Positions 13,429-56,097 of a stretch of DNA of 64,000 nucleotides are shown one piece after another. Below the pieces are notes generated by a model that saw only the letters and a list, made by a program, of their open reading frames with translations, had not been told where the DNA came from and ran no database searches. The position numbers and the translations under genes are program-made. Position 1 is the stretch's first letter. Every line of letters begins with the position of its first letter. Source of the stretch: Deroplatys truncata (taxonomy: Eukaryota > Arthropoda > Insecta > Mantodea > Mantidae); contig CM060990.1 in assembly GCA_030765065.1 (NCBI GenBank), positions 674,652,118 to 674,716,117 of the forward strand. Direction: 5' to 3'.

Positions 13429-14990
13429 CAGAGTGTTTCTGAAATACTCTTACAAACTTCGGGTATGGGTTCCTCCCACCAAAAGAAGGAAAAAAGTTCA
13501 TATGAACATATGCCCCATAATCCTTGGTTTTCGCGTTATTCCTGTCACAATGAAAGTGTGAGTTCAACGGCCTTCGGGGTCCAACCTCAAAACTTCATTT
13601 CTTTATGCATTCATAGAAGGCGTTGACCCATCGTACTACATACGGTAGATGGCGAAGTGTTGCCATGGAGACTTGTTTACGTTTGTCATTTGTCATTAGT
13701 CTGTCTTCAACGTTTCAATTGTGTACATGTAATGAGTTAACTGCAAGTGTTTCGTTCCACCATGGCTGGATATTCATTTCGTGAACAGGCAGACATGATT
13801 TTTATGTATGGTCGCGCGAAGGGTAATGGACGCGAGGCTGCACGGCTCTATCAGATGGAGTTTCCAGACCGAAGACAACCGAGTCATCCAACGTTTGTCG
13901 CTGTTTATCGTCGCCTTGCTGAGACAGGAACCGTTGCACCACGGACTATTGATCGAGGAAGACCAAGAGTTGTTCGTACGCCGGAACGCGAAGAACAGAT
14001 GTTAAAGTGTGTCGAAGATGATCCAGGTATCAGTACAAGACGATTGGCTGTGGCATCCGGTACATCACACGTGACAGCATGGAGGGTACTTCACGATCAG
14101 CTCCTGTATCCATATCATATTCAACGTGTGCAGGGCCTTTCGCCTGCCGATTATCCACTACGGGATAACTTTTGCCGATGGTTTGTAGCACAAACAGCCA
14201 ATCCATTGTTTGTCTCGTCAGTTTTGTTTACAGACGAGGCAACGTTTGGGAGAGATGGAGTTACTAATTTCCACAACGTACACGTATGGGCAGATCGTAA
14301 TCCTCATGCTGTACTTCAGGCTAGACAACAGCAACAGTTTAGTCTGAATGTGTGGGCTGGCATTGTAGGTGACTGTCTGGTAGGTCCATACGTTTTACCA
14401 GCACGTCTTACTGGTGCTGTCTACAGGGACTTTATCCAGCACACTCATCCCGACTTACTTCACGAAGATGTGCCCCTGCAAATAAGACAAAAACATGTGG
14501 TTTATCCATGATGGGTCTCCGGCGCATTTTAGTCGCATTGTTCGAGATGCACTGACTGGTATCTAACATGACCGATGGATAGGCAGAGGAGGACCAGTTC
14601 CATGGCCTACACGTTCTCCCGACCTCAATCCTGTGGATGTTTACCTCTGGGGGCATTTTAAATCATTGGTTTATGGAGCAGCCATCCCGGATGCAGAAAC
14701 GCTTCGCCGACGTGTCATGGAAGCCTGCGTAACCATTCGACATCATCCCGGAGTTTTTGACAGGGTGCGACATTCCATGTTTCGACGAGTACAGGCATGC
14801 ATATAAGCAAGAGGAGGACATTTCGAGCATTTATTATGAGTTTTTTGTGTTATAAGTGTACCACTGTGTTGAACACCTCCTAACGAGAAAACAAAGGATT
14901 ATGGGACATATATTCATATTAACTTTTTTCCTTCTTGTGGTGTAAGGAACCCATACCCGAAGTTTGTAAAAGTATTTCTGAAACATCCTG
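13429..14990 (+). mobile_element. DDE transposon with DUF4817-type transposase
   Basis: A 1,562-bp element. Its ends form inverted repeats of roughly 110 bp (CAGAGTGTTTCTGAAATACT at the left, CAGGATGTTTCAGAAATACT when the right end is read in reverse). It is flanked by TATA on both sides (13,425-13,428 and 14,991-14,994), so the target duplication is TA or TATA. The insertion splits PolB fossil 1, and the uninterrupted sequence exists in fossil 2. It contains one transposase gene. Confidence 0.9.
13762..14806 (+). pseudogene. IS630/Tc1-like transposase with N-terminal DUF4817
   Basis: The start is placed at the ATG at 13,762 (CCACCATGG, a strong context) rather than the in-frame ATG 15 bases upstream. 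Residues 1-60 match the DUF4817 helix-turn-helix domain and a second helix-turn-helix follows (about 75-120). The first catalytic Asp lies in LFTDEATFGRDG and NVWAGI follows. Near 14,490 in an A-rich tract a frameshift breaks the gene. In the next frame the second catalytic block (WFIHDGSPAHFS) and third block (RSPDLNPVD) are present, with one stop between them. It is a recently inactivated copy with all three catalytic Asp codons still visible. Confidence 0.85.
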
Positions 14991-33002: not shown

Positions 33003-33099
33003 ACAAACACTGCCCATTCTCCGTTAAAAACATGCAAACGTTATAGCGGTTTGACATTCGAACATAATATTTTATAAGCGCACATTCTCATTTCAAATA

Positions 33100-34325
33100 A
33101 ACGTTTAAGCCATAATTTTAAGAAAAAGTATGGATGCTGTACTAGTAAATTTAATGGAGCACGTGGCACAGATGCTCATGCTATCCATTCAGAGCATCAT
33201 AATTCTTTAGTTGAAATTTACATCCATGTTGATGACGATTGGTATTTAAAAATTTATAAATTCAGTCCAAGCGAAAAGAGTAACTTATTTTCCGTTTTAA
33301 TACACGAAATTGTACATTCCCTAGGTTTATCCAATACTAACGAAAAACGATCCGTTATGTATCCATATTACGTAAGCGATATTATTGACATACATCCTGA
33401 TGATATGTCGTCCACCGTGGTCCAGGGGTACCATGCTAGCCTCTGATTCCCGAGATCAAGGGTTCAAACCCGGCGGAGAGCGATGGATTTTTTTTCGGGC
33501 TCAAACTCCTTAGCATGGCAAGTAAAGCCGGTGGTCCCGTGTCGTAGATTTACGGCACGCAAAAGAACCTCGAACATGATAAAGAGGCCTCTAAGCAAAA
33601 TTACCGGTCTTTCACGCCCAATACAGAATGGGACGCTAAGAACCATAGTAGTTAAACAGCGTCCATAAATTAAAACTCAATTAACATCCGCCATCCCGAA
33701 AAAAGTTATGCAAAAGCCACCAAACAACTTGGGTTTCTAGAACTAGGTAAGGGATGGGTTGGAGCCACGAATGGAGAGGAGTTGCTTTACTAATCCTTTA
33801 CCAACTTAACACGCAGTTCTTTATAACGGCATTGTTTTTGCATCAAAGTTTACAACAGCAAACCACAGGTAACACGCGATTCTTTACATGTTTTGCTTCA
33901 GGATTTCAAAACGATACACGCTGTATATCAAGGAACAAACGGCGAAGTCCTATTAATAATAGAAAAACAAATACACGTAATTAAATATCCAAGTTTGAAT
34001 CTAGTATCTGATTATCCTAAATCATTTTCTGATGTTGGTATATCTGTTAACGTAAAAATTAATTCGATGTACAATTCACACACATGTTTTTCAACTTTGA
34101 TTATTACATCGGAACAGACGAATGCACATTTAAGGCTAAATATCACGGATTGGTAAATAAACGACTTTCTGGTGTACTCATCCAATGGAATCAGCTTTTA
34201 AATGCACAAATGGAATGGTGTACTTCTTAAAAAAATAACACCTATTTCGAATACAATGAATTTACAAATCAACTATTTAAAGCAGGCAAAAACAGGATTT
34301 CTATATTTGGAATAATATAAACATT
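33100..34325 (+). pseudogene. Matrixin/hemopexin metalloprotease fossil
   Basis: 33,120-33,406 encodes a matrix-metalloprotease catalytic domain with the zinc-binding signature HEIVHSLGL, then the Met-turn-like VMYPYY and the family-typical IHPDDM. After an inserted SINE (33,408-33,680), 33,880-34,320 encodes hemopexin-like repeats (AVYQGTNGEVLLI; later KAKYHGLVNKR). Matrixins cut extracellular-matrix proteins. They occur in animals and also in some large insect DNA viruses. No introns are apparent between the catalytic and hemopexin parts other than the SINE, which favours a viral or retrocopied source. It is broken in several places and treated here as a fossil. Confidence 0.65.
33408..33680 (+). 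repeat. tRNA-derived SINE, major family, copy 6
   Basis: Head GTCGTCCACCGTGG, B box GGGTTCAAACCCG, body and GTCCATAAATTAAAA end. It is inserted immediately after the catalytic domain of the metalloprotease fossil. Confidence 0.9.
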
Positions 34326-37812: not shown

Positions 37813-38156
37813 TACGAGGTTTGTCGCAGAAGCACCCGACCTAACAAAGAAAACACCAAAATTTTGGGGAAAAAATCTTTATTTGTCTACATAGTCTCCT
37901 TTCAGCTCGATACACTTCCCAGCGATATTCAATAGCTTCGATACCCTGTTTATAGTGAGAACCGTCGAGTTCTGCAAACTAGCCATCAACTGCAAACTCC
38001 ACCTCTTCATTGTTGGCTAATCTTTTACCACCAAGCCATTTCTTCAACTTTGGAAACAGAAAAGAGTCAGAGGGGGCTAAGTCTGGCGAATAGGGAGCAC
38101 AAGGAAGCAATTCGAACTTTAAGTAAATGATTTTAGTCATGGCGATAATGGATGTG
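37813..38156 (-). pseudogene. mariner element, 3' part (left of the palindromic element)
   Basis: On the minus strand this reads, from 38,156 leftward, the mariner block after the second catalytic Asp: HTSIIAMTKI, then YSPDLAPSD with the third Asp, FLFPKLKKWLGGKR and the C-terminus, down to a terminus CGAGGTTTGTCGCAGAAGCA at 37,815 next to TA. It is the same mariner copy as 55,215-56,097. The Polinton-like element was inserted just after the HQDNAPVHT motif. The transposase is dead through this insertion and through other damage. Confidence 0.88.
38151..38156. repeat. 6-bp target duplication, left copy
   Basis: GATGTG directly before AGTAGG. The same GATGTG follows CCTACT at 55,215. In an intact mariner these six bases occur once within the HTS codons. 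Confidence 0.93.
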
Positions 38157-38159
38157 AGT

Positions 38160-39335
38160 AGGATATATAGGAGAGATCGAGCGCAGTTTTTTGCGTTTAT
38201 ATGGGAAAGGATAGGGAAAACGAGGCTAGATGCGACGGTTCAAGGAGGAAAATGCGTTTATATGGGCGAGATAGGGAATACGAGGACTGACGCTAGGCTA
38301 GACAGTGGTAGGAGGGGAGTGCGCTTTATATGAGAAAGATAGGGAATACGAGGGGAGGTGCTAGGCTAGACAGAGGCTGAGTAGAGTATAGTTTATATGA
38401 GAGGTATAGGAAAACGAGGGGAGGTGTTAGACTAGACAGAGGCTTGAAACGTAGTGCATGGTTTATATGAGTGGTATAGGAAAACGAGGAGAGGAGTTAG
38501 ACTAGACAGAGGTCGAGGAGCAGAGTATGGTTTATGTGAGAGATATAGGAAAACGAGGAAAGGTGTTAGGCTAGACAGAAGTCGAGGAGTAGAGTATGGT
38601 TTATATGAGAGGTATAGGAACAGGAGAAGAGGTGTTAGGCTAGACAGGTAGTGTAGCAGTAGGAATATGGACTTATATACAGGAGAGATAGGGAATACCA
38701 GGGCTGATGCTAGGCTAGTCAGATGCTAAAGGAGGGAGGGATATGCTTTATACGAGAGAGATAGGGAATACAAGGAAAGATGCTATACTAAACAGGACTT
38801 GAAGGGTAGAATATGAGCGATTAGCGAACCGAGGAGAGGTGCTAGTATAGGAGTTTTTAATGATGGAGTAGGCGTTTATATGCGAGAGATAGGGAATACG
38901 AGGGTCGATGCTAGGCTAGACAGTGGTAGGAGGGGGAGTGCGCTTTATATGAGAAAGATAGGGAATACGAGGGGAGGTGCTAGTCTAGACATTGTTTGAG
39001 GATTAGAGTATACGTTTATATGGGAGGTATAGGAAAACGAGGGGAGGTGTTAGGCTAGACAGATGCTGAGTAATGTATGGTTTATATGAGTGGTATAGGA
39101 AAACGAGGAGAGGAGTTAGACTAGACAGAGGTCGAGGAGCAGAGTATGGTTTATGTGAGAGTCATGGGTAAACGAGAGAGGCGTTAGGCTAGACAGAGCT
39201 AGAGGAATAGAGTATGGTTTATATGAGAGGTATAGGAACAGGAGAAGAGGTGTTAGGCTAGACAGGTAGTGTAGCAGTAGGAATATGGACTTATATACAG
39301 GAGAGATAGGGAATAGGAGGGCTAGACTTGAAAGC
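38160..39335. repeat. Terminal tandem repeats, left arm
   Basis: About sixteen degenerate units of roughly 70-75 bp built on TTTATATGAGAGGTATAGG, ACGAGGGGAGGTG and TTAGGCTAGACAG. A higher-order period of ~617 bp is visible (a ~100-bp block at 38,597 recurs at 39,215). The repeats begin within a few bases of the element terminus. Confidence 0.9.
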
Positions 39336-39417
39336 GACTTTAGACGTGAACTTAGTGGAAAACTGTTTCATGTCAATGTTAGAACGCTAATTCTAGACAT
39401 GCCCATCACGTAACCTA

Positions 39418-39597
39418 TTCAGGGAAAAGGTGACTCGTTCAGGGGAAAAAGGTGACTGCTCAGGGAAAAAGGAGGCCCACAAAGGGAAAAAGTTGACTAG
39501 CAAAGGGAAAAACGTGACCAGCAAAGGGAAAAATGTCACCAGCAAAGGGAAAAAAGGCGACCACCAAAGGGAAAAAGGTGACCTGCAACGGGAAAAG
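39418..39597. repeat. GGGAAAA short tandem repeats, left arm
   Basis: About nine units of roughly 20 bp of the form AAAGGGAAAAAGGTGACC. Confidence 0.9.
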
Positions 39598-39599
39598 CT

Positions 39600-40735
39600 A
39601 ACCCACTAACACTAACAGGTAAGTAATTCAGGTAGTATCACAGGAGGCTAGATTCCAGGGTTGGGTATAGCATAGTTTCATATTTCAAGGTAATTCAGAG
39701 GGTATCGTAGGTATTTAGGATAATTCAAGTAACATAGGTGTTTAGAGTAATTAAGCAAGCATTACAGGAGGGTAGGTTCCAGGGGTTGGTTATAACCTAG
39801 CTTCGTATTTCACAGATAGTTCAGGTAATATCGTAAGTATTTGAGGTAATCGACAGAGCTTCACAGATATTATTGATAATTTCGATCAGAGATTTGTATC
39901 ACAGCTATTTAAGGTAAATGCAGATGATTCAGGTTGTATCAATGGTATTTGAGTCATTTTAACAGGTAATTCAGATAGCATCACAGGTGCTCGTGCTAAT
40001 TTAGAGCAGGAATTCGTATCAGAGCTAGTTAAGGTAATTTCACATGATTCGGGTAGTATCACAGGTATTTAAATCATTTTCATAGCCAATTCAGCTAGTA
40101 TCGTGAGCATTTAAGCTAATTCAGCTAGTATCACAGGAGGCTAGATTCCAGAGGCTAACTGCATCATAGCTATGCATGATTTCACAGCTAATTCAGCTAG
40201 TATCGTAGGTATTTAGGCTAATTCAGGTAGTATCACAGGAGGCTAGATTCCAGGGTTGGGTATAGCATAGTTTCATATTTCAAGGTAATTCAGAGGGTAT
40301 CGTAGGTATTTAGGATAATTCAAGTAACATAGATGCTTAGAGTAATTAAGCAAGCATTACAGGAGGGTAGGTTCCAGGGGTTGGTTATAGCCTAGTTTCG
40401 TATTTTACAGATAGTTCAGGTAATATCATAAGTATTTGGATAATCAGCATAGTTTCACAGACGCTCGTAATAATTTCGATCAGAGATTTTGTATCACGGC
40501 TATTTAAGGTAAATGCAGCTGATTCAGGTTGTATCAATGGTATTTGAGTCATTTTAATAGGCAATTCTGATAGTATCACAGGTGCTCGTACTAATTTAGA
40601 GCAGGAATTCGTATCTGAGCTATTTAATGTAATTTCACACGATTCGGGTAGTATCACAGGTATTTAAGTCATTTTAACAGGCAATTCAACTAGTATCACA
40701 GGTACTCATGGTAATATAGAGAGTAATTCGATTAT
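39600..40735. repeat. Subterminal repeats (AATTCAGGTAGTATCACAGG type), left arm
   Basis: Degenerate ~30-bp units based on AATTCAGGTAGTATCACAGG, within a larger duplication of about 590 bp (block starting GGCTAGATTCCAGGGTTGGG at 39,647 and again near 40,241). The 90-codon frame within is repeat-derived. Confidence 0.85.
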
Positions 40736-40884
40736 AAAACTTTTCTCATCCAACGTTACAACAATTTATATACTTTTTTCTAAATCTTACAAACTTATTA
40801 TATGTTAAACACTTATTGTACGATGCGGAGAGGGATAAACTGCATATTGGTTCACAAACTGAAAAGCTTTACGTCAACATACCT

Positions 40885-40890
40885 TTTATT
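40885..40890 (-). terminator. Polyadenylation signal, left PolB gene
   Basis: AATAAA on the minus strand about 205 bases past the PolB stop codon. Mirror of 52,481-52,486. Confidence 0.5.
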
Positions 40891-41093
40891 TTAGTTCGTT
40901 ATAGATGTCTCTCCCCTTTTATCTAGGCTTGAGACTAGCACTAGGATTGCTCCTAATGGCAGGGTTACCACCTTCCCTTCCATCTTCTTCTTTGTTCATC
41001 AGGCGTCAGCTATCTGCATATACAGCACACAGATACCTTCTTTTTTAAGATTGTAGACTCACTAGAAAATCTTTATCTTTAACTTACATTCTT

Positions 41094-44000
41094 TTAAGCA
41101 CTGTTTGTAATGGCGTAATGTCCATACGCATATGTTGTTATCCCGTCCTCAGCAATAATTCTTTTATCATCAAACGGAGTCAATGCAATTTTATTCACTT
41201 GTACTGTAGCAAGGGCATGCTTTCGTGATAGGATCAGATTCATAGGTGTTCTGATGATTTCACTGGTTTTAAGACAGTCTGTATAGCTGTCAAACGAAAT
41301 GTACTGCTTAATAGCGCTACGTTTTATACCTTTAATCTTTTTTATCATTGACCCTTGAATATCTAAGGCATACATCTTAGGACGTAGTCCAACAAAGCGT
41401 AGGATGATTTTGCTGTTAGCCTCATCTTTAAATTTTCCCAATACCTTCTTGTTCTGAGTAGAGTAACATATATGGTTGGCAGGGTAATCAGCTGTATCGA
41501 GATGTTCAAGAAAACGTAGCTTGTCCTGGTACACATCTTCAGTTGTTACACGATGAATGAACGAATCAGTGTCCATATACATAAGCTTCAGGTTTTCAGC
41601 TCCATAATAAGGCAACAAAACGTCGTAATGATAGTTATACATTAATGTCTTGGAGATGTCCAACACACTCATACCAATGTATATAGGCTTGTTGAATACA
41701 ATCTGACGAGAGGCCATATGTACAGCAGCTAGATTATCAGCATATATCGTCCTGTCGATAAACGTAGGCTTGGCGATCAGCTTCTCTAGAGTTTTTTCAT
41801 TGGTCACCAGTCGTATATCCATACGATTACGCAGGTTCTCCATAGTTTTTCCAAACATAGCGTTGTTAAAGAGTTTGTAGAGATCCTTCTCGAAATCATT
41901 TGCAGCTTGTTGTCGTAGCCTGTTGTTAAATTCCACATAAGGTTTCAACCACTGAGACTGTCGGAATTGTAGCACACGATGGATTTTTGTTAGTCGTAGT
42001 CCATGACTAAGAGCTTGCTTCAAAGCCATGTAATGCACTACATACTTCTTTCGAGGTCCAAGATGAGGTATCAGTTTCTTTGTAGATGATTCCAATGGTT
42101 TCATACACTCTGGCAGGAAAGGTAGATCGTTGTGTAGATCGTGAAGTTCTGCAGGATACTCGATGTCGACTTCTAATATGTACCCATGAGGATCATCTTC
42201 TTGTAGTGTTTCTAAGTTGATTTCTTCAGGTGACACCCACTGAAATCCACCAAAAGGAAGGGCGTGACACATTGCCCACCCATATTGGTTATTTGCGTCC
42301 TCGTATGTGATAAATTGGGTTGGTCTCGTCGGATCAAACTTCTCCATATAAGTGTTATTAGCCTCAGCATACCGATGAGAAACTTGGCATAAACCTCCTC
42401 TTATACCTGATTCCACCATGAGTAGTTGATCATAATCTTGTAACAGTTCCAGCTTAATTCCAGTATACAGCAACATGGCGTCCCATGTAAGACCTGGAGA
42501 GGTAAAATAATGGGCAGGATCAACTTTGTGTGTTTTAAGGGTTTGCTCTCTGAACGTCTCAAAGACGTCAGCTAGAAGAAGTACATCCGAAGTTAAGTAG
42601 AGATCGCTGTACTCTCCCAGGTTTCTCACATTAAACAGCTCCCATACATTTCTAGCATGATCGTAGTCAGCATCAGTAATTTCTTCTTCATTTAATCTAT
42701 TGTAGAAGGAGTCCTTAGGAGGCAAGCAGGTCTCGTTCAGGGCATCCCATGACGTAACAAAATCATATGGAAATACACCCTTACGGGTCATCAACTTCAA
42801 TTTGTCTTCTCCAAAGTACTTTAGCGTTTCAGGATACGAGGTTAGATTTTTTACCAACTTATCCAAGCTTGTACTGAGGAATCGGAAGCTATCCACAAAT
42901 CGAAGCTTTATATCTCCTACATACTTGGTGAATGAGATATAGCTTTCTTCGGAGTTAGGAATTACCTCCACACGTTCACTTGTACAACCCAGCTCCTTAA
43001 CAATGAAATGAGAGTCATATCCGCTAAGGTTATGCATGAAGACTGGTATATATTTAGGTGTTTTACAGGCTAAATTACATTCATTATGAAGACTTCCACG
43101 ATATTCACCGCTGATGTGATCATGGTCGCGTACTTTATAATTCTCTTCTGTAAAGGGTTTTCTACACAAGTAGCATGTCGTAGAAGACTCGAAATCCTTT
43201 TGCTGTTGATCCGTAAGTTTCAGAGGCTTAGCAGATTTGTATATATTACCAATCATTTTTGCAAGAGATGTAAGGTACAGCATAAACGTCTGAGCAGCAT
43301 CAGCACCACGATACACATAGGGATGCTTAGGAAGATCAGTTTCGAGATGTTCAACACTGGATGTAGGTTTCACGTAAACACAGAAGCTCATTGGTGTGTG
43401 CTCTTGATAAGGTGTTGTATAGGAAGTTTCAGGATTGGGTGTACACGTATGGCATGGAGTGAGAATACTCTCAAAATCCGCATAGATGACATAAGGTACT
43501 TTCAGCATCCTCTCAACATTTTTAAACTGTACAATTGATTTCTCCTTGGTAGGCATAACTACCCTTGCAACACCATGTTGAATACAGACGGCTGCATGTT
43601 CTTGTAGCTTTTCCTGTCCACTTCGTCCATATCGATCATCAAAATGTGTAAAACAGCGCTTACAAGTATAAACCCGTCCATTATGGTTAGTTTTCTGGCG
43701 TCGAACGAGTTTCTCAAAATTCCTTATATACACGTAGTGATGTTTTCCACTGCTATCATTCAATAGTAGCAGGTCGCGATGTTCAGGTAGTTCAATATCA
43801 GCAACCTTTATCGGATACACTTCATGCTTCTCATCCAACCCGAAAACGTTAATAGACATATTGTTAAACTTCTCAAATTTAGGTATTTGAGAAAGTGGAG
43901 TAGGGTAGGAAACACAGCTGAAGTCGTACTTGTCTTGAAGTTGTTTGTATTTGCTCACACGTTGCGCATCCTTCCCTATGAATTTAGCTAATATAGAGTA

Positions 44001-44747
44001 CATGAAACATTTATCGTCGGTAAAGTTCTGAATGTTTATACACGCTTCTTTAGCTCCGACAGATGACGGTAGTGGTATGTAGCTACTTCCTCGTAACGGG
44101 TTGTACTTGTTGATACGAAGTCGAACTCCTTCCACAGCAAGCAAAGCCCAGCTGCTACCCTTAAGCTGAGACTCCTCCATTTCAGTCACCAATTTCTTGA
44201 ATTTCACTTCCATCGTTGACTCCAGATCAGTTTCCAGGAAAACAGCTTGATTCCGTGTTTTAAATGTTTTGTCACAGGTTTCTCCAATACTGTTAACAAA
44301 TCGACACTCAGCCAGCAGATTAATTTTAACACTCTTATGAATGCTAAGCTCTTTATGCACAGCCCGGATTATACGTTGTTTTGCCTCTTGCAGATACATA
44401 TTTAGGTCCTTAGCTGATTCGCATCGTATAAAATACGATTTCAATCGTCCTTCGAATGAAGTTTCGTATTCTTTCATATCACAGTCCTCCATTGTTGACA
44501 GTAACTGATGTTTAGTTGGCTCCAATCTTCTTTTCTTCTGAGGGCTGCTTATTTCACATATATCTTCGTGTCGCTGTCCCTTATAACAATCTTTGAAGGT
44601 TACATTACAATGTTTACATTTGAAGAGCTTCTTGCAGCTCATCTCGTGTCTTCTCTTGTCATAACCTCGGAGGAACTTCTTCCCACATTTTCCGCATGCA
44701 TATCCAGTAGCGCTTGGAATAATATCCTTATACGCTGAGTTATTCAT
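41094..44747 (-). CDS. polB: Protein-primed family B DNA polymerase, left-arm copy
   Basis: A 1,217-residue protein, uninterrupted. It would copy the linear element DNA from a protein primer. Residues 18-38 and 44-64 are two C-x2-C-x12-H-x3-C zinc fingers, and a third Cys/His cluster lies near 360-390. Exonuclease motif I is D424-F-E426 and motif II is D578 (HNLSGYDSHF). Between them, residues 525-561 form an endonuclease-VII-like zinc module (C525-x2-C528, DHDH 541-544, H554-x2-C557). Polymerase motif A is around D817 (YEDANNQYG), motif B is 958-967 (KLFNNAMFGK) and motif C is D1059-T-D1061. This domain order is known from Polinton and adintovirus-like polymerases of arthropods. Motif A departs from the usual DxxSLYP. 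The sequence is identical to the right-arm copy and transcribed outward from the palindrome centre. Confidence 0.95.
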   Translation of the reverse strand: MNNSAYKDIIPSATGYACGKCGKKFLRGYDKRRHEMSCKKLFKCKHCNVTFKDCYKGQRHEDICEISSPQKKRRLEPTKHQLLSTMEDCDMKEYETSFEGRLKSYFIRCESAKDLNMYLQEAKQRIIRAVHKELSIHKSVKINLLAECRFVNSIGETCDKTFKTRNQAVFLETDLESTMEVKFKKLVTEMEESQLKGSSWALLAVEGVRLRINKYNPLRGSSYIPLPSSVGAKEACINIQNFTDDKCFMYSILAKFIGKDAQRVSKYKQLQDKYDFSCVSYPTPLSQIPKFEKFNNMSINVFGLDEKHEVYPIKVADIELPEHRDLLLLNDSSGKHHYVYIRNFEKLVRRQKTNHNGRVYTCKRCFTHFDDRYGRSGQEKLQEHAAVCIQHGVARVVMPTKEKSIVQFKNVERMLKVPYVIYADFESILTPCHTCTPNPETSYTTPYQEHTPMSFCVYVKPTSSVEHLETDLPKHPYVYRGADAAQTFMLYLTSLAKMIGNIYKSAKPLKLTDQQQKDFESSTTCYLCRKPFTEENYKVRDHDHISGEYRGSLHNECNLACKTPKYIPVFMHNLSGYDSHFIVKELGCTSERVEVIPNSEESYISFTKYVGDIKLRFVDSFRFLSTSLDKLVKNLTSYPETLKYFGEDKLKLMTRKGVFPYDFVTSWDALNETCLPPKDSFYNRLNEEEITDADYDHARNVWELFNVRNLGEYSDLYLTSDVLLLADVFETFREQTLKTHKVDPAHYFTSPGLTWDAMLLYTGIKLELLQDYDQLLMVESGIRGGLCQVSHRYAEANNTYMEKFDPTRPTQFITYEDANNQYGWAMCHALPFGGFQWVSPEEINLETLQEDDPHGYILEVDIEYPAELHDLHNDLPFLPECMKPLESSTKKLIPHLGPRKKYVVHYMALKQALSHGLRLTKIHRVLQFRQSQWLKPYVEFNNRLRQQAANDFEKDLYKLFNNAMFGKTMENLRNRMDIRLVTNEKTLEKLIAKPTFIDRTIYADNLAAVHMASRQIVFNKPIYIGMSVLDISKTLMYNYHYDVLLPYYGAENLKLMYMDTDSFIHRVTTEDVYQDKLRFLEHLDTADYPANHICYSTQNKKVLGKFKDEANSKIILRFVGLRPKMYALDIQGSMIKKIKGIKRSAIKQYISFDSYTDCLKTSEIIRTPMNLILSRKHALATVQVNKIALTPFDDKRIIAEDGITTYAYGHYAITNSA

Positions 44748-44905
44748 CTTTATTCTTGATGTAATAACGTATTAATCACTGATCAATGAAATGTAGACCT
44801 CTTCACCTTGACACCACTTTAGAAAGCTGATTATTCTTGGAGAGAACACGATGTTAACACCTCAAGACTAATTAGCACAATGAAGTCCAATGCCCTAGAT
44901 CACCA

Positions 44906-44913
44906 TATTTATA
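44906..44913 (-). promoter_or_regulatory. TATA box, left PolB gene
   Basis: TATAAATA on the minus strand, mirror of 48,458-48,465. An initiator-like TCATTG lies 32 bases downstream (A at 44,881). Confidence 0.65.
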
Positions 44914-45399
44914 GAGGGAGCACGAACCTTTTAGATCAATCATAAACTCGCTCCATAACCACCTGTATATGATCGCTCAACGTGTACTAACCCCCCAGCC
45001 ATATAACCTCAAGTCTAGAGACAGGATGTTTATGACGTCACACCCAGAGACAGGATGTCTGGCAGCATCAAACACGTTTAAACTCGTCTCATAACTACCT
45101 GCTTATGCTGTCACACCAGCAAGAGAAGTATTCCCACACGCTCATTCAGACATATATTTCAAATTCAAGCCCACCACCACCATCACCACCTATTGTACCA
45201 AGGTTAATTCAAGCTGTATTATCACAATACTTAAAATTAAAAGCTTAAAAGGAAACCTAGAAGATTTTCCCCCTTATTTACTTAATTATTTCATGTTTTT
45301 ATTCCCTTTTCAATTCTTCCTTTCCATCTTCTCACAGAAAGACCATTACATTTCACTACAATCATGAGAAAAGCAATTTTTCCAGAGTTACACAGATTC

Positions 45400-46650
45400 T
45401 AAGCTTCTAAATCGAACCCGGTAATACTTTTAATAAATGTATTTTAGCTCCCCAATATCAGCATCTACCATTTAATCTTTACTCGAACCTGATATGATCC
45501 ATAAGCTTGAAGATATATGAAATCACCCTTCGGGATTCGATCTGAGTACTTTAAAGTAATATTTGTCACGATAACGATATTTAAGGACTAGATACTCTGT
45601 TTGCGTTTACCTTGACATGTTTATCTAAATTAAACTACGAGTTATTAAATTTTTGCAAGTAAATTTCATTGAATCGGTATTCGAACCCAGAACACCAGGA
45701 ACAACATAATTTATAATATTAGTCTGACATGTTAAACAAAGTTGTATGCAGTTACATCATCGATCTAAGTGATATATTCTAGTGTACAGAGGAAACTTAA
45801 GAAAGTCATTAAAAATCGGGAATCGAACCAAGCACAACTGATTGGCAATTATATACAGCATTAATTACCCAGTACAGAACCTATCAATCATGCTTTGCTG
45901 CACTCCTCTACCTCACTTAGTTCCCGAGATAATGAAAATTTAAAAATTAAGGATCGAACCCAGGACGTCAGGTATCTAATTACACATTTACAGGATACTA
46001 CCTAATAACATAAACGCAATAAAGTTTATTTGCCGTCTTTATCTTAATTGGTTTAGGAGTTATTAAATTTATAAGTAAATTCCATCGAATCAGTATTCGA
46101 ACCCAGAACACCAAGAACAAAATAATTTATAATATGAGTTCTGTATGCTTAAAGGTGCTGTATGTAGTTACAGCATCAATCTAACTGATATTTTCTAGAG
46201 TATAGAGTAAAATTAAGGAAGTCATTAAAAAATCGGGATTCGAACTAGAGACAACCGATTAAAAATTATATACGGTATTAATTACACATTATAACAGCTA
46301 TCAAACATGCTTTGGTCCATTCCTCTAGCTTTCTTAGTTTCCGAGATAATGATGTTTTTAAAATTAAGGATCGAACCCAGGACACCAGGTACCAAAATAT
46401 ACATCCACAAGAAACTAGCTAATGACATTAATGTAATAAAGTTTATTTGGCGTCTTTATCTTAATTAGTCTCTGAGTTATTAGAAGATGAATTTGCATTC
46501 ACTCCTAGGATTCGAACCCAGGCATCCCAGTCAACTTGGAACAAGGTCCTAATGACGCGGCGCATTCCAATGAATTGATTAGTTTTTATCCCATTGTTCT
46601 ATCTCTTTTCATTCAGGAGATATAAGCGATTAAACAGTAGAGATAATATG
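45400..46650. repeat. Central ~417-bp repeats with B-box-like motifs, left arm
   Basis: Mirror image of 46,721-47,971; see that entry. The repeats flank the spacer of the palindrome. Confidence 0.8.
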
Positions 46651-46720
46651 GGCGGAGCTTGCCGGCATAGATCAAAAGAACTTTATCAGATGTCGGCATC
46701 TCTCTGTGTGCTCATACATA
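46651..46720. other. 70-bp asymmetric spacer at palindrome centre
   Basis: The only part of the element not shared by both arms. It contains a smaller imperfect hairpin, TGCCGGCAT (46,660-46,668) against ATGTCGGCA (46,691-46,699), whose centre is offset about 6 bp from the main centre of symmetry (46,685.5). Such an offset is what is left when the tip of a large palindrome has been trimmed asymmetrically. Confidence 0.9.
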
Positions 46721-47971
46721 CATATTATCTCTACTGTTTAATCGCTTATATCTCCTGAATGAAAAGAGATAGAACAATGGGATAAAAACTAATCAATTCA
46801 TTGGAATGCGCCGCGTCATTAGGACCTTGTTCCAAGTTGACTGGGATGCCTGGGTTCGAATCCTAGGAGTGAATGCAAATTCATCTTCTAATAACTCAGA
46901 GACTAATTAAGATAAAGACGCCAAATAAACTTTATTACATTAATGTCATTAGCTAGTTTCTTGTGGATGTATATTTTGGTACCTGGTGTCCTGGGTTCGA
47001 TCCTTAATTTTAAAAACATCATTATCTCGGAAACTAAGAAAGCTAGAGGAATGGACCAAAGCATGTTTGATAGCTGTTATAATGTGTAATTAATACCGTA
47101 TATAATTTTTAATCGGTTGTCTCTAGTTCGAATCCCGATTTTTTAATGACTTCCTTAATTTTACTCTATACTCTAGAAAATATCAGTTAGATTGATGCTG
47201 TAACTACATACAGCACCTTTAAGCATACAGAACTCATATTATAAATTATTTTGTTCTTGGTGTTCTGGGTTCGAATACTGATTCGATGGAATTTACTTAT
47301 AAATTTAATAACTCCTAAACCAATTAAGATAAAGACGGCAAATAAACTTTATTGCGTTTATGTTATTAGGTAGTATCCTGTAAATGTGTAATTAGATACC
47401 TGACGTCCTGGGTTCGATCCTTAATTTTTAAATTTTCATTATCTCGGGAACTAAGTGAGGTAGAGGAGTGCAGCAAAGCATGATTGATAGGTTCTGTACT
47501 GGGTAATTAATGCTGTATATAATTGCCAATCAGTTGTGCTTGGTTCGATTCCCGATTTTTAATGACTTTCTTAAGTTTCCTCTGTACACTAGAATATATC
47601 ACTTAGATCGATGATGTAACTGCATACAACTTTGTTTAACATGTCAGACTAATATTATAAATTATGTTGTTCCTGGTGTTCTGGGTTCGAATACCGATTC
47701 AATGAAATTTACTTGCAAAAATTTAATAACTCGTAGTTTAATTTAGATAAACATGTCAAGGTAAACGCAAACAGAGTATCTAGTCCTTAAATATCGTTAT
47801 CGTGACAAATATTACTTTAAAGTACTCAGATCGAATCCCGAAGGGTGATTTCATATATCTTCAAGCTTATGGATCATATCAGGTTCGAGTAAAGATTAAA
47901 TGGTAGATGCTGATATTGGGGAGCTAAAATACATTTATTAAAAGTATTACCGGGTTCGATTTAGAAGCTTA
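46721..47971. repeat. Central ~417-bp repeats with B-box-like motifs, right arm
   Basis: About two and a half to three copies of a ~417-bp unit. Each unit contains three evenly spaced motifs resembling the tRNA B box (GGTTCGANNCC): 46,853, 46,994, 47,125, 47,268, 47,411, 47,542, 47,694 and 47,828, i.e. every 131-152 bp, with two looser ones at 47,882 and 47,953. All read outward toward PolB. They are the best conserved part of the unit. No A box is evident. Confidence 0.8.
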
Positions 47972-48457
47972 GAATCTGTGTAACTCTGGAAAAATTGCTT
48001 TTCTCATGATTGTAGTGAAATGTAATGGTCTTTCTGTGAGAAGATGGAAAGGAAGAATTGAAAAGGGAATAAAAACATGAAATAATTAAGTAAATAAGGG
48101 GGAAAATCTTCTAGGTTTCCTTTTAAGCTTTTAATTTTAAGTATTGTGATAATACAGCTTGAATTAACCTTGGTACAATAGGTGGTGATGGTGGTGGTGG
48201 GCTTGAATTTGAAATATATGTCTGAATGAGCGTGTGGGAATACTTCTCTTGCTGGTGTGACAGCATAAGCAGGTAGTTATGAGACGAGTTTAAACGTGTT
48301 TGATGCTGCCAGACATCCTGTCTCTGGGTGTGACGTCATAAACATCCTGTCTCTAGACTTGAGGTTATATGGCTGGGGGGTTAGTACACGTTGAGCGATC
48401 ATATACAGGTGGTTATGGAGCGAGTTTATGATTGATCTAAAAGGTTCGTGCTCCCTC

Positions 48458-48465
48458 TATAAATA
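48458..48465 (+). promoter_or_regulatory. TATA box, right PolB gene
   Basis: TATAAATA at 48,458, with the initiator-like TCATTG at 48,488 placing +1 at the A at 48,490, 32 bases downstream and matching arthropod core-promoter spacing. The predicted leader is about 134 bases with no intron needed. Confidence 0.65.
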
Positions 48466-48623
48466 TGGTGATCTAGGGCATTGGACTTCATTGTGCTAAT
48501 TAGTCTTGAGGTGTTAACATCGTGTTCTCTCCAAGAATAATCAGCTTTCTAAAGTGGTGTCAAGGTGAAGAGGTCTACATTTCATTGATCAGTGATTAAT
48601 ACGTTATTACATCAAGAATAAAG

Positions 48624-51600
48624 ATGAATAACTCAGCGTATAAGGATATTATTCCAAGCGCTACTGGATATGCATGCGGAAAATGTGGGAAGAAGTTCCT
48701 CCGAGGTTATGACAAGAGAAGACACGAGATGAGCTGCAAGAAGCTCTTCAAATGTAAACATTGTAATGTAACCTTCAAAGATTGTTATAAGGGACAGCGA
48801 CACGAAGATATATGTGAAATAAGCAGCCCTCAGAAGAAAAGAAGATTGGAGCCAACTAAACATCAGTTACTGTCAACAATGGAGGACTGTGATATGAAAG
48901 AATACGAAACTTCATTCGAAGGACGATTGAAATCGTATTTTATACGATGCGAATCAGCTAAGGACCTAAATATGTATCTGCAAGAGGCAAAACAACGTAT
49001 AATCCGGGCTGTGCATAAAGAGCTTAGCATTCATAAGAGTGTTAAAATTAATCTGCTGGCTGAGTGTCGATTTGTTAACAGTATTGGAGAAACCTGTGAC
49101 AAAACATTTAAAACACGGAATCAAGCTGTTTTCCTGGAAACTGATCTGGAGTCAACGATGGAAGTGAAATTCAAGAAATTGGTGACTGAAATGGAGGAGT
49201 CTCAGCTTAAGGGTAGCAGCTGGGCTTTGCTTGCTGTGGAAGGAGTTCGACTTCGTATCAACAAGTACAACCCGTTACGAGGAAGTAGCTACATACCACT
49301 ACCGTCATCTGTCGGAGCTAAAGAAGCGTGTATAAACATTCAGAACTTTACCGACGATAAATGTTTCATGTACTCTATATTAGCTAAATTCATAGGGAAG
49401 GATGCGCAACGTGTGAGCAAATACAAACAACTTCAAGACAAGTACGACTTCAGCTGTGTTTCCTACCCTACTCCACTTTCTCAAATACCTAAATTTGAGA
49501 AGTTTAACAATATGTCTATTAACGTTTTCGGGTTGGATGAGAAGCATGAAGTGTATCCGATAAAGGTTGCTGATATTGAACTACCTGAACATCGCGACCT
49601 GCTACTATTGAATGATAGCAGTGGAAAACATCACTACGTGTATATAAGGAATTTTGAGAAACTCGTTCGACGCCAGAAAACTAACCATAATGGACGGGTT
49701 TATACTTGTAAGCGCTGTTTTACACATTTTGATGATCGATATGGACGAAGTGGACAGGAAAAGCTACAAGAACATGCAGCCGTCTGTATTCAACATGGTG
49801 TTGCAAGGGTAGTTATGCCTACCAAGGAGAAATCAATTGTACAGTTTAAAAATGTTGAGAGGATGCTGAAAGTACCTTATGTCATCTATGCGGATTTTGA
49901 GAGTATTCTCACTCCATGCCATACGTGTACACCCAATCCTGAAACTTCCTATACAACACCTTATCAAGAGCACACACCAATGAGCTTCTGTGTTTACGTG
50001 AAACCTACATCCAGTGTTGAACATCTCGAAACTGATCTTCCTAAGCATCCCTATGTGTATCGTGGTGCTGATGCTGCTCAGACGTTTATGCTGTACCTTA
50101 CATCTCTTGCAAAAATGATTGGTAATATATACAAATCTGCTAAGCCTCTGAAACTTACGGATCAACAGCAAAAGGATTTCGAGTCTTCTACGACATGCTA
50201 CTTGTGTAGAAAACCCTTTACAGAAGAGAATTATAAAGTACGCGACCATGATCACATCAGCGGTGAATATCGTGGAAGTCTTCATAATGAATGTAATTTA
50301 GCCTGTAAAACACCTAAATATATACCAGTCTTCATGCATAACCTTAGCGGATATGACTCTCATTTCATTGTTAAGGAGCTGGGTTGTACAAGTGAACGTG
50401 TGGAGGTAATTCCTAACTCCGAAGAAAGCTATATCTCATTCACCAAGTATGTAGGAGATATAAAGCTTCGATTTGTGGATAGCTTCCGATTCCTCAGTAC
50501 AAGCTTGGATAAGTTGGTAAAAAATCTAACCTCGTATCCTGAAACGCTAAAGTACTTTGGAGAAGACAAATTGAAGTTGATGACCCGTAAGGGTGTATTT
50601 CCATATGATTTTGTTACGTCATGGGATGCCCTGAACGAGACCTGCTTGCCTCCTAAGGACTCCTTCTACAATAGATTAAATGAAGAAGAAATTACTGATG
50701 CTGACTACGATCATGCTAGAAATGTATGGGAGCTGTTTAATGTGAGAAACCTGGGAGAGTACAGCGATCTCTACTTAACTTCGGATGTACTTCTTCTAGC
50801 TGACGTCTTTGAGACGTTCAGAGAGCAAACCCTTAAAACACACAAAGTTGATCCTGCCCATTATTTTACCTCTCCAGGTCTTACATGGGACGCCATGTTG
50901 CTGTATACTGGAATTAAGCTGGAACTGTTACAAGATTATGATCAACTACTCATGGTGGAATCAGGTATAAGAGGAGGTTTATGCCAAGTTTCTCATCGGT
51001 ATGCTGAGGCTAATAACACTTATATGGAGAAGTTTGATCCGACGAGACCAACCCAATTTATCACATACGAGGACGCAAATAACCAATATGGGTGGGCAAT
51101 GTGTCACGCCCTTCCTTTTGGTGGATTTCAGTGGGTGTCACCTGAAGAAATCAACTTAGAAACACTACAAGAAGATGATCCTCATGGGTACATATTAGAA
51201 GTCGACATCGAGTATCCTGCAGAACTTCACGATCTACACAACGATCTACCTTTCCTGCCAGAGTGTATGAAACCATTGGAATCATCTACAAAGAAACTGA
51301 TACCTCATCTTGGACCTCGAAAGAAGTATGTAGTGCATTACATGGCTTTGAAGCAAGCTCTTAGTCATGGACTACGACTAACAAAAATCCATCGTGTGCT
51401 ACAATTCCGACAGTCTCAGTGGTTGAAACCTTATGTGGAATTTAACAACAGGCTACGACAACAAGCTGCAAATGATTTCGAGAAGGATCTCTACAAACTC
51501 TTTAACAACGCTATGTTTGGAAAAACTATGGAGAACCTGCGTAATCGTATGGATATACGACTGGTGACCAATGAAAAAACTCTAGAGAAGCTGATCGCCA

Positions 51601-52277
51601 AGCCTACGTTTATCGACAGGACGATATATGCTGATAATCTAGCTGCTGTACATATGGCCTCTCGTCAGATTGTATTCAACAAGCCTATATACATTGGTAT
51701 GAGTGTGTTGGACATCTCCAAGACATTAATGTATAACTATCATTACGACGTTTTGTTGCCTTATTATGGAGCTGAAAACCTGAAGCTTATGTATATGGAC
51801 ACTGATTCGTTCATTCATCGTGTAACAACTGAAGATGTGTACCAGGACAAGCTACGTTTTCTTGAACATCTCGATACAGCTGATTACCCTGCCAACCATA
51901 TATGTTACTCTACTCAGAACAAGAAGGTATTGGGAAAATTTAAAGATGAGGCTAACAGCAAAATCATCCTACGCTTTGTTGGACTACGTCCTAAGATGTA
52001 TGCCTTAGATATTCAAGGGTCAATGATAAAAAAGATTAAAGGTATAAAACGTAGCGCTATTAAGCAGTACATTTCGTTTGACAGCTATACAGACTGTCTT
52101 AAAACCAGTGAAATCATCAGAACACCTATGAATCTGATCCTATCACGAAAGCATGCCCTTGCTACAGTACAAGTGAATAAAATTGCATTGACTCCGTTTG
52201 ATGATAAAAGAATTATTGCTGAGGACGGGATAACAACATATGCGTATGGACATTACGCCATTACAAACAGTGCTTAA
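48624..52277 (+). CDS. polB: Protein-primed family B DNA polymerase, right-arm copy
   Basis: Identical in protein sequence to the left-arm copy (1,217 residues). Landmarks on the DNA: zinc fingers 48,675-48,815; exonuclease motif I near 49,893; endonuclease-VII-like module 50,196-50,306; motif A near 51,072; motif B near 51,495-51,524; motif C (YMDTDS) near 51,795. The start is the first ATG after the predicted cap site (48,624). Two complete, identical genes within one element is unusual: Polintons normally carry a single polB alongside integrase, ATPase, protease and capsid genes. Here it is the only gene of each arm. Confidence 0.95.
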   Translation: MNNSAYKDIIPSATGYACGKCGKKFLRGYDKRRHEMSCKKLFKCKHCNVTFKDCYKGQRHEDICEISSPQKKRRLEPTKHQLLSTMEDCDMKEYETSFEGRLKSYFIRCESAKDLNMYLQEAKQRIIRAVHKELSIHKSVKINLLAECRFVNSIGETCDKTFKTRNQAVFLETDLESTMEVKFKKLVTEMEESQLKGSSWALLAVEGVRLRINKYNPLRGSSYIPLPSSVGAKEACINIQNFTDDKCFMYSILAKFIGKDAQRVSKYKQLQDKYDFSCVSYPTPLSQIPKFEKFNNMSINVFGLDEKHEVYPIKVADIELPEHRDLLLLNDSSGKHHYVYIRNFEKLVRRQKTNHNGRVYTCKRCFTHFDDRYGRSGQEKLQEHAAVCIQHGVARVVMPTKEKSIVQFKNVERMLKVPYVIYADFESILTPCHTCTPNPETSYTTPYQEHTPMSFCVYVKPTSSVEHLETDLPKHPYVYRGADAAQTFMLYLTSLAKMIGNIYKSAKPLKLTDQQQKDFESSTTCYLCRKPFTEENYKVRDHDHISGEYRGSLHNECNLACKTPKYIPVFMHNLSGYDSHFIVKELGCTSERVEVIPNSEESYISFTKYVGDIKLRFVDSFRFLSTSLDKLVKNLTSYPETLKYFGEDKLKLMTRKGVFPYDFVTSWDALNETCLPPKDSFYNRLNEEEITDADYDHARNVWELFNVRNLGEYSDLYLTSDVLLLADVFETFREQTLKTHKVDPAHYFTSPGLTWDAMLLYTGIKLELLQDYDQLLMVESGIRGGLCQVSHRYAEANNTYMEKFDPTRPTQFITYEDANNQYGWAMCHALPFGGFQWVSPEEINLETLQEDDPHGYILEVDIEYPAELHDLHNDLPFLPECMKPLESSTKKLIPHLGPRKKYVVHYMALKQALSHGLRLTKIHRVLQFRQSQWLKPYVEFNNRLRQQAANDFEKDLYKLFNNAMFGKTMENLRNRMDIRLVTNEKTLEKLIAKPTFIDRTIYADNLAAVHMASRQIVFNKPIYIGMSVLDISKTLMYNYHYDVLLPYYGAENLKLMYMDTDSFIHRVTTEDVYQDKLRFLEHLDTADYPANHICYSTQNKKVLGKFKDEANSKIILRFVGLRPKMYALDIQGSMIKKIKGIKRSAIKQYISFDSYTDCLKTSEIIRTPMNLILSRKHALATVQVNKIALTPFDDKRIIAEDGITTYAYGHYAITNSA

Positions 52278-52480
52278 AAGAATGTAAGTTAAAGATAAAG
52301 ATTTTCTAGTGAGTCTACAATCTTAAAAAAGAAGGTATCTGTGTGCTGTATATGCAGATAGCTGACGCCTGATGAACAAAGAAGAAGATGGAAGGGAAGG
52401 TGGTAACCCTGCCATTAGGAGCAATCCTAGTGCTAGTCTCAAGCCTAGATAAAAGGGGAGAGACATCTATAACGAACTAA

Positions 52481-52486
52481 AATAAA
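52481..52486 (+). terminator. Polyadenylation signal, right PolB gene
   Basis: AATAAA about 205 bases after the PolB stop codon; no nearer signal was seen. Confidence 0.5.
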
Positions 52487-52635
52487 AGGTATGTTGACGT
52501 AAAGCTTTTCAGTTTGTGAACCAATATGCAGTTTATCCCTCTCCGCATCGTACAATAAGTGTTTAACATATAATAAGTTTGTAAGATTTAGAAAAAAGTA
52601 TATAAATTGTTGTAACGTTGGATGAGAAAAGTTTT

Positions 52636-53771
52636 ATAATCGAATTACTCTCTATATTACCATGAGTACCTGTGATACTAGTTGAATTGCCTGTTAAAAT
52701 GACTTAAATACCTGTGATACTACCCGAATCGTGTGAAATTACATTAAATAGCTCAGATACGAATTCCTGCTCTAAATTAGTACGAGCACCTGTGATACTA
52801 TCAGAATTGCCTATTAAAATGACTCAAATACCATTGATACAACCTGAATCAGCTGCATTTACCTTAAATAGCCGTGATACAAAATCTCTGATCGAAATTA
52901 TTACGAGCGTCTGTGAAACTATGCTGATTATCCAAATACTTATGATATTACCTGAACTATCTGTAAAATACGAAACTAGGCTATAACCAACCCCTGGAAC
53001 CTACCCTCCTGTAATGCTTGCTTAATTACTCTAAGCATCTATGTTACTTGAATTATCCTAAATACCTACGATACCCTCTGAATTACCTTGAAATATGAAA
53101 CTATGCTATACCCAACCCTGGAATCTAGCCTCCTGTGATACTACCTGAATTAGCCTAAATACCTACGATACTAGCTGAATTAGCTGTGAAATCATGCATA
53201 GCTATGATGCAGTTAGCCTCTGGAATCTAGCCTCCTGTGATACTAGCTGAATTAGCTTAAATGCTCACGATACTAGCTGAATTGGCTATGAAAATGATTT
53301 AAATACCTGTGATACTACCCGAATCATGTGAAATTACCTTAACTAGCTCTGATACGAATTCCTGCTCTAAATTAGCACGAGCACCTGTGATGCTATCTGA
53401 ATTACCTGTTAAAATGACTCAAATACCATTGATACAACCTGAATCATCTGCATTTACCTTAAATAGCTGTGATACAAATCTCTGATCGAAATTATCAATA
53501 ATATCTGTGAAGCTCTGTCGATTACCTCAAATACTTACGATATTACCTGAACTATCTGTGAAATACGAAGCTAGGTTATAACCAACCCCTGGAACCTACC
53601 CTCCTGTAATGCTTGCTTAATTACTCTAAACACCTATGTTACTTGAATTATCCTAAATACCTACGATACCCTCTGAATTACCTTGAAATATGAAACTATG
53701 CTATACCCAACCCTGGAATCTAGCCTCCTGTGATACTACCTGAATTACTTACCTGTTAGTGTTAGTGGGTT
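52636..53771. repeat. Subterminal repeats, right arm
   Basis: Mirror of 39,600-40,735 (units based on CCTGTGATACTACCTGAATT). Confidence 0.85.
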
Positions 53772-53773
53772 AG

Positions 53774-53953
53774 CTTTTCCCGTTGCAGGTCACCTTTTTC
53801 CCTTTGGTGGTCGCCTTTTTTCCCTTTGCTGGTGACATTTTTCCCTTTGCTGGTCACGTTTTTCCCTTTGCTAGTCAACTTTTTCCCTTTGTGGGCCTCC
53901 TTTTTCCCTGAGCAGTCACCTTTTTCCCCTGAACGAGTCACCTTTTCCCTGAA
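53774..53953. repeat. TTTTCCC short tandem repeats, right arm
   Basis: Mirror of 39,418-39,597. Confidence 0.9.
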
Positions 53954-54035
53954 TAGGTTACGTGATGGGCATGTCTAGAATTAGCGTTCTAACATTGACA
54001 TGAAACAGTTTTCCACTAAGTTCACGTCTAAAGTC

Positions 54036-55211
54036 GCTTTCAAGTCTAGCCCTCCTATTCCCTATCTCTCCTGTATATAAGTCCATATTCCTACTGCTAC
54101 ACTACCTGTCTAGCCTAACACCTCTTCTCCTGTTCCTATACCTCTCATATAAACCATACTCTATTCCTCTAGCTCTGTCTAGCCTAACGCCTCTCTCGTT
54201 TACCCATGACTCTCACATAAACCATACTCTGCTCCTCGACCTCTGTCTAGTCTAACTCCTCTCCTCGTTTTCCTATACCACTCATATAAACCATACATTA
54301 CTCAGCATCTGTCTAGCCTAACACCTCCCCTCGTTTTCCTATACCTCCCATATAAACGTATACTCTAATCCTCAAACAATGTCTAGACTAGCACCTCCCC
54401 TCGTATTCCCTATCTTTCTCATATAAAGCGCACTCCCCCTCCTACCACTGTCTAGCCTAGCATCGACCCTCGTATTCCCTATCTCTCGCATATAAACGCC
54501 TACTCCATCATTAAAAACTCCTATACTAGCACCTCTCCTCGGTTCGCTAATCGCTCATATTCTACCCTTCAAGTCCTGTTTAGTATAGCATCTTTCCTTG
54601 TATTCCCTATCTCTCTCGTATAAAGCATATCCCTCCCTCCTTTAGCATCTGACTAGCCTAGCATCAGCCCTGGTATTCCCTATCTCTCCTGTATATAAGT
54701 CCATATTCCTACTGCTACACTACCTGTCTAGCCTAACACCTCTTCTCCTGTTCCTATACCTCTCATATAAACCATACTCTACTCCTCGACTTCTGTCTAG
54801 CCTAACACCTTTCCTCGTTTTCCTATATCTCTCACATAAACCATACTCTGCTCCTCGACCTCTGTCTAGTCTAACTCCTCTCCTCGTTTTCCTATACCAC
54901 TCATATAAACCATGCACTACGTTTCAAGCCTCTGTCTAGTCTAACACCTCCCCTCGTTTTCCTATACCTCTCATATAAACTATACTCTACTCAGCCTCTG
55001 TCTAGCCTAGCACCTCCCCTCGTATTCCCTATCTTTCTCATATAAAGCGCACTCCCCTCCTACCACTGTCTAGCCTAGCGTCAGTCCTCGTATTCCCTAT
55101 CTCGCCCATATAAACGCATTTTCCTCCTTGAACCGTCGCATCTAGCCTCGTTTTCCCTATCCTTTCCCATATAAACGCAAAAAACTGCGCTCGATCTCTC
55201 CTATATATCCT
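54036..55211. repeat. Terminal tandem repeats, right arm
   Basis: Mirror of 38,160-39,335. The 65-codon frames here are repeat-derived. Confidence 0.9.
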
Positions 55212-55214
55212 ACT

Positions 55215-55220
55215 GATGTG
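55215..55220. repeat. 6-bp target duplication, right copy
   Basis: GATGTG directly after CCTACT; pairs with 38,151-38,156. Confidence 0.93.
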
Positions 55221-56097
55221 TGAACTGGTGCATTGTCTTGATGAAACAAAACTTTCTTTTTCGCTAAATGCGGCCGTTTTTTGCTTGATTTCATCATTCA
55301 AACGCTGCAATAAGTTTATATAATACTCGCCATTGATTGCTTTTCCTTTTTGAAGATAATCAATGAAAATTATCCCACACGCATTCCAAAAAACTGACGC
55401 CATGACCTTGCCTGCAGATGGAACTGTCTTCGCTTTCTTTGGAACCGATTCTCCCCTTTCAATCCACTGTTTTGACTGTGAAGAGATGGACCCATGTTTC
55501 ATCCATGGTTATGAATCGACGCAAAAACCCGGCTTTATTGCAGCGAAACATCGCCAAACACTCGACTGAAACATCCTCAAGACGCTGCTTTTGTTCCATT
55601 GTGAGTAAACGCGGCACCCATCTTGCGCACAGATTTCTCATGTCTAAATTTTCAGCTAGTGCGATCTTCAGCACTTTTTGAATTGTCTACGATATCTGCT
55701 ATCTCGCGCACTTTCAGCCGACGGTCAACCAATACCATTTTGTGGATTTTCTTCACAATTTCTGGCGTGGGCATCTCATTTGTTCGATCACTGCGATGTT
55801 CGTCTTGGCAGCTCGTACGGCCTCGCTTAAACTCTGCCACCCAATATTTTACTGTTGTAAACGAAGGAGCAGACTCCCCCAGAGTATAATCTAGCTCAGC
55901 TTTAATATTAGTTGGACTAAGAGCTTTCAAATGAAAGTCTTGAATCACATAACGATGGCCAGTTTTATCCATGCTTATAAATTCGCTGAGAGAGTTCACT
56001 ATAAATGGCTGCCAAACAATTACTAAACAACGTAGCATCGTCAAACTTCAAACTTAAGCTTTATAAGGTCGATACTTTCTATCATAGTCATTTGTTT
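55215..56097 (-). pseudogene. mariner element, 5' part (right of the palindromic element)
   Basis: Minus-strand mariner transposase. The start is taken at MDKTGHRYVI (about 55,966), because the preceding 26 in-frame residues are leader-like. The helix-turn-helix region contains ESAPSFTTVKYWVAEFKRGR. The first catalytic Asp is in FITMDETWVH (about 55,488). The second is in HQDNAPVHT (about 55,230), directly beside the insertion. At least two frameshifts break the gene between start and insertion (near 55,660 and in the 55,470-55,500 and 55,240 regions). The right terminal repeat near 56,070-56,097 is decayed (it keeps the end TCGACC). Confidence 0.82.

Follow-up and report, generated by a model that had tools for sequence, protein, structure and literature searches.

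We analyzed a 64,000-nucleotide stretch of the genome of the mantis Deroplatys truncata (contig CM060990.1, positions 674,652,118 to 674,716,117), referred to below as the window. The window contains an integrated element (38157-55214) of 17,058 bp that has Polinton-type ends and is a near-perfect mirror image of its own sequence, with one intact PolB gene in each half. We give slightly better than even credence to the explanation that a larger element contributed its PolB end, that fold-back in protein-primed replication turned this end into an inverted dimer, and that a borrowed integrase then inserted the dimer.

Symmetry and insertion site of the element

The element was compared base by base with its own reverse complement. 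Only 58 of the 17,058 positions mismatched, and every one of them was located inside a unique centre of 70 nt (46651-46720). The left arm (38157-46650) and the right arm (46721-55214) each comprise 8,494 nt, and direct comparison of the arms as reverse complements revealed 0 differences. The symmetry point is at 46685.5. Identity over 8,494 nt is far outside chance. The spacer itself can be drawn as an imperfect hairpin. However, 18 of 200 shuffles folded equally well or better (z -1.51) and a significant hairpin was rejected.

Next to the arms, both element ends were inspected. The element starts with AGTAGG and ends with CCTACT, so that its terminal inverted repeats begin with AGT and finish with ACT, as those of Polinton/Maverick elements do. 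Vertebrate Mavericks were described with the end motif (AGT)2//(ACT)2 or (AG)3//(CT)3 (PMC8097293), and these doubled motifs are absent from the ends found here. The hexamer GATGTG was read directly on either side (38151-38156 and 55215-55220). These identical copies represent a 6-bp target-site duplication (TSD), again as in Polintons. Given one TSD pair and one shared centre, the insertion of two separate elements was rejected.

The flanks on either side are two pieces of one mariner transposon, which reads on the minus strand. The 3' part of its transposase frame is located on the left (37980-38156, outer limit approximate) and the 5' part on the right (55221-56047). Domain searches of the mariner gave a match to Transposase_1 (E 1.1e-21) and, in the 5' part, a helix-turn-helix match weaker than its cut-off. 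When the element and one copy of the TSD were left out, frame 0 of the mariner was continuous across the junction, with 25 open codons preceding it and 59 following it, and reads ...FHQDNAPV then HTSIIAMTKIIYLKFELLPCAPYSPDLAPSD.... Stops and a frame shift were found farther from the junction, in the 5' part. From the single frame across the junction it follows that the element appears to have inserted as a unit into an older, decayed transposon, with no target bases lost.

Long perfect inverted repeats are difficult to assemble, and this speaks for an assembly artefact. A simple fold-back sequencing read was rejected, as the flanks differ and rejoin as one mariner frame around a perfect TSD. 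Any other misjoin would have had to coincide with the point where the mirrored stretch ends, while still leaving a unique spacer of 70 bp. Altogether, we regard an artefact as unlikely. An initial annotation of this DNA had proposed exact arms of 8,494 bp mirrored about 46,685.5 with a 70-bp spacer, Polinton-type ends with a 6-bp target duplication and integration as a unit. The arm comparison, the end sequences and the reclosing mariner frame agree with it on all of these points.

The PolB gene and the coding content of the arms

Each arm contains one intact PolB gene that reads outward. The stop-to-stop open reading frames (ORFs; 41094-44771 on the minus strand and 48600-52277 on the plus strand) comprise 1,225 aa. 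Counted from the first ATG, the protein has 1,217 aa, encoded at 41094-44747 (-) in the left arm and, mirrored about the symmetry point, at 48624-52277 (+) in the right arm. The two genes are identical because the arms are identical; the identical, outward-facing genes of 1,217 residues noted initially were thus recovered. The distance from the ATG to the inner arm end is 1.9 kb and that from the stop to the tip is 2.9 kb.

The encoded protein is a PolB of the adintovirus/Polinton type. It is 46% identical to the PolB of a Ladona dragonfly adintovirus, with 92% of the query covered, and its best viral model match is an adintovirus protein. The PolB motif residues are intact, and so are the predicted terminal-protein (TP) and viral OTU-like (vOTU) regions. 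In the structural models, the N-terminus resembles a terminal-protein-like fold and an OTU-protease fold. The predicted TP domain, with a little-finger-like fold, is encoded at 48888-49277 (+), and the predicted OTU-like protease domain, with the invariant residues Cys255 and His345, at 49278-49769 (+). These fold readings rest on a second comparison of the models, made with VIA-align; Foldseek returned no match in the PDB at E 0.001 for either model. A PolB with TP and vOTU domains is characteristic of Polinton/Maverick elements, and the protein found here conforms to this as far as its folds and protein priming can be predicted. It also has the N-terminal OTU-like domain of adintovirus PolB. 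Since these two folds are part of its own PolB, the predicted product of the element is a putative self-priming replicase.

Searches with the PolB sequence revealed one further region. Residues 529-568 (50184-50303, +) are similar to Endonuclease VII (Pfam PF02945, E 1.5e-5), and the matches in PHROGs were confined to endonuclease VII families and one family of unknown function. The NCBIfam search of PolB gave 0 matches, and a sequence search of the PDB gave 5 weak matches, the best at E 0.29. The PolB tree was built with 67 of the 119 rows with a length of 1,000 aa or more (121 rows in all), namely the numbers up to P0060 and the named rows. Alignment A1 comprises 16 of the 121 proteins; A2 comprises 40 and A3 41, each beside the window's own piece.

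Besides PolB, 13 ORFs of at least 60 aa are located within the right arm or reach into it. For twelve of these, Pfam gave no match at E 0.1, and hence none to an ATPase, protease or capsid gene. The thirteenth crosses the outer end of the arm and matches a mariner transposase. In addition, 10 ORFs of two distant relatives were compared with the spacer and the right arm by tblastn. Only PolB was matched well (36% identity over 1,182 aligned positions), with the next best match at E 0.044. A retroviral-type integrase was recognized neither by Pfam in any of the 12 non-mariner ORFs nor by tblastn with the integrase of L003, one of the related contigs described below. Likewise, no hexon and no integrase with chromodomain, both expected of an adintovirus, were recognized in the right arm by Pfam or tblastn. 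Genes that are spliced, split or strongly diverged could be missed by the ORF and Pfam scan. As far as tested, the arms thus have the PolB-only content that had been proposed. An Rfam scan of the window gave 0 matches, and the tRNA scan found 0 genes.

The gene content also bears on a local chromosomal origin. Here, an inserted element would have broken and the gap would have been filled from the opposite end, with the result that the terminal repeat grew to 8.5 kb and the interior was lost. Such an event would likewise keep both ends and the TSD, and variable long terminal repeats are found in other transposons, for example Galileo. It requires, however, that the whole interior was lost and that copying halted within 70 bp of the mirror, and no remnant of an interior was recognized by Pfam or tblastn. 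We consider gap repair of this kind improbable, slightly more so than an assembly artefact.

Relatives, known palindromic genomes and a proposed origin

Seven contigs of 3.1-7.2 kb (L001-L007) carry a PolB of the adintovirus/Polinton type. They were binned in bacterial metagenome-assembled genomes (MAGs) assigned to Gastranaerophilales, Spirochaetes, Muriicola, Ectothiorhodospiraceae and Oligoflexia, and are probably contaminating eukaryotic or viral DNA. In the 7.2-kb contig L003, an integrase (rve, E 1.3e-11) and an ORF similar to an adenovirus core protein (E 6.2e-7) are located upstream of PolB on the same strand, and the PolB end is 111 nt from the contig edge. PolB is therefore outermost, which fits the arm as one end of a larger element. 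A parent built in this way and a single fold-back inward of PolB would together account for the observed layout, in which one end and PolB are retained and both are mirrored. A protease-like reading in the same contig reached E 0.068 only and missed every cut-off. In contrast to L003, contig L001 has six ORFs of 114-180 aa downstream of PolB, including a BRO-N-like and a VRR-NUC-like ORF. This arrangement weighs against the view that the arm represents the PolB-bearing end of some larger element. In viral_contigs, no relatives were confirmed, either by protein or by alignment. There, a 19-mer of the terminal repeat had 0 matches, and the 3 matches of the terminal 17-mer were internal (L008-L010) and were taken as chance.

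By its content the element is not a full Polinton or adintovirus, yet it has their kind of ends and polymerase. With Polinton/Maverick elements it shares the 6-bp TSD, the AGT...ACT ends, a PolB with predicted TP-like and vOTU-like folds and a length of about 17 kb. It differs from them in that no integrase, ATPase, protease or capsid gene was recognized and in that its terminal repeats of 8.5 kb make up nearly the whole element. Passages of PMC11071296 define adintoviruses by a hexon, an integrase with chromodomain and a PolB with an N-terminal OTU-like domain. The last of these is common to both, but the element is palindromic and neither hexon nor integrase was recognized. By the definition given in these passages it is not an adintovirus.

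As free molecules, defective genomes in palindromic or hairpin form are familiar from protein-primed replicons, namely linear plasmids, phage and adenovirus. In yeast, the hairpin forms derive from pGKL1 and comprise a palindromic dimer and a hairpin. The SYREC-type defective genomes of adenovirus are protein-primed, palindromic and symmetric about one end. They resemble the element in priming and symmetry, but they are not integrated. The fungal hairpin plasmids, too, are extrachromosomal, are found in fungi and are not integrated with a TSD. Adeno-associated virus (AAV) differs from the element in being a parvovirus that is hairpin-primed instead of protein-primed. Its populations contain symmetric, self-complementary snapback genomes according to passages of PMC8235507, and these share with the element a symmetric, self-complementary defective form.

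Closer likenesses were found elsewhere. The yeast hairpin plasmids and the hairpin-forming deletion derivative of the Neurospora kalilo plasmid are protein-primed replicons in which a shortened genome exists both as hairpin and as duplex; titles on such hairpin forms of linear plasmids in yeast and Neurospora are cited in the reference lists of PMC4443254 and PMC11071308. Phage phi29, which likewise uses a protein-primed family B polymerase, yields shortened molecules derived from one end, which passages of PMC4974454 link to template switching. These subgenomes differ from the element in that they are free phage molecules of 1-8 kb, and they are not termed palindromes in that review. As to symmetry alone, the element has the form of an inverted dimer with a small spacer, and palindromic defective derivatives of protein-primed replicons have such a form with a small spacer or none.

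This symmetry supports the analogy to palindromic defective genomes that was drawn in the initial annotation. Its interpretation held for the PolB-only content, the proper ends, the insertion as a unit and the defective-genome analogy as such. With respect to adenovirus, nearer precedents exist in the hairpin derivatives of linear plasmids and the phi29 template-switch products. The initial annotation had also been aware of no described element of this form, and among the matches listed, which cover open-licence full text in part, there was no description of an integrated palindromic Polinton.

By analogy, the element most likely functions as hairpin-forming derivatives of linear plasmids do. 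Formation of the inverted dimer could then have proceeded as follows. PolB, for which a primer (terminal-protein) domain and an OTU protease of its own are predicted, would start at the element end, and the growing strand would pass PolB and stall about 8.5 kb in. The stalled 3' end would anneal to a short inverted match located some 70 nt earlier, and synthesis would return to the starting end with either the strand itself or the displaced strand as template. Copying of the resulting one-ended hairpin could begin at its only end and run on through the 70-nt loop; the product would be a linear duplex whose two ends are identical and both serve as replication origins. Any displaced strand of the palindrome could snap back to the same hairpin, and PolB alone might maintain the form. 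At 17 kb the palindrome is close to a full element in length and has the right end sequence, so that it could be inserted by a helper integrase, which would have to be supplied by another element. The near full-element size may also be relevant to packaging.

If this origin is true, mirror-image genomes can enter animal chromosomes, and the integrase of the Polinton group accepts whatever molecule carries suitable ends. Arguments on the replication of Polinton-group elements have so far drawn mainly on gene content. The palindrome would be direct natural evidence that they replicate extrachromosomally by strand displacement from protein-primed ends. On this view the parent, if it is present in the same genome, should hold the arm, the spacer and a short inverted match, with sequence of an unrelated kind beyond them. 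A further-reaching idea is that of a "hairpin Polinton", a self-maintaining class of animal elements with one replicase gene and two origins that borrows only an integrase. It would alternate between an 8.5-kb one-ended hairpin and the 17-kb integrated palindrome, and the arms would become identical again in each cycle. We regard the existence of such a class as rather unlikely.

Repeat arrays in the arms and other features of the window

Toward its tip, each arm has a stack of tandem arrays, whose units measure 69, 21 and about 120 bp. The terminal array has a 69-bp unit (about 14.7 copies at 38256-39265 on the left; 54106-55115 on the right). It is followed inward by an array of a 21-bp unit (GGGAAAAAGGTGACCAGCAAA; 39443-39596 and 53775-53928) and by tandem repeats with a unit of 120-125 bp on the left (39877-40730) and of 102-120 bp on the right (52641-53527). 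In the right inner arm, a motif scan detected seven motifs facing PolB (46853-47694, +), and the left inner arm contains the mirror image of this array (45677-46518, -). We take these motifs to be tRNA B box-like. They were defined as GGTTCGANNCC with at most one mismatch, are spaced 131-143 bp apart and match on the opposite strand as well at 3 of the 7 sites. Shuffled sequences (1,000) contained 0.04 motifs on average and 1 at most. Outside the element, 12 matches were counted in 47 kb of the window. The array may be a candidate set of protein-binding sites.

Such elaborate repeat and B-box-like arrays suit an adapted element better than a fresh accident. Together with the intact PolB motif, vOTU and TP regions they speak for an established PolB-only palindromic family, in which the cycle of hairpin and palindrome is the normal life form and copying of the hairpin renews the identity of the arms. 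However, only one copy was observed, with no second copy or fragment in the remainder of the window. Moreover, no long inverted repeat was found in the seven MAG contigs, which are too short for a good test; the longest one shown has arms of 51 nt. An established family appears unlikely to us, if a little less so than an assembly artefact.

Several features were observed elsewhere in the window. A unit of 333 bp is duplicated in tandem at 6660-7324 (97% matches). A transposase-like ORF of 256 aa with a DUF4817 helix-turn-helix is located at 13741-14511 (+), and the closest among the matches listed for it is 91% identical. At 25509-26861 there is a decayed reverse-transcriptase element with strong GC skew (RVT_1, E 6.1e-20 at 25525-25863). 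The segment 57062-63967 contains several diverged repeat copies in the same orientation, with about 68-79% identity. Finally, a fragment of a matrixin-type metalloprotease (PF00413, E 1.6e-14) was detected at 33078-33446 (+), possibly an exon of a host gene.

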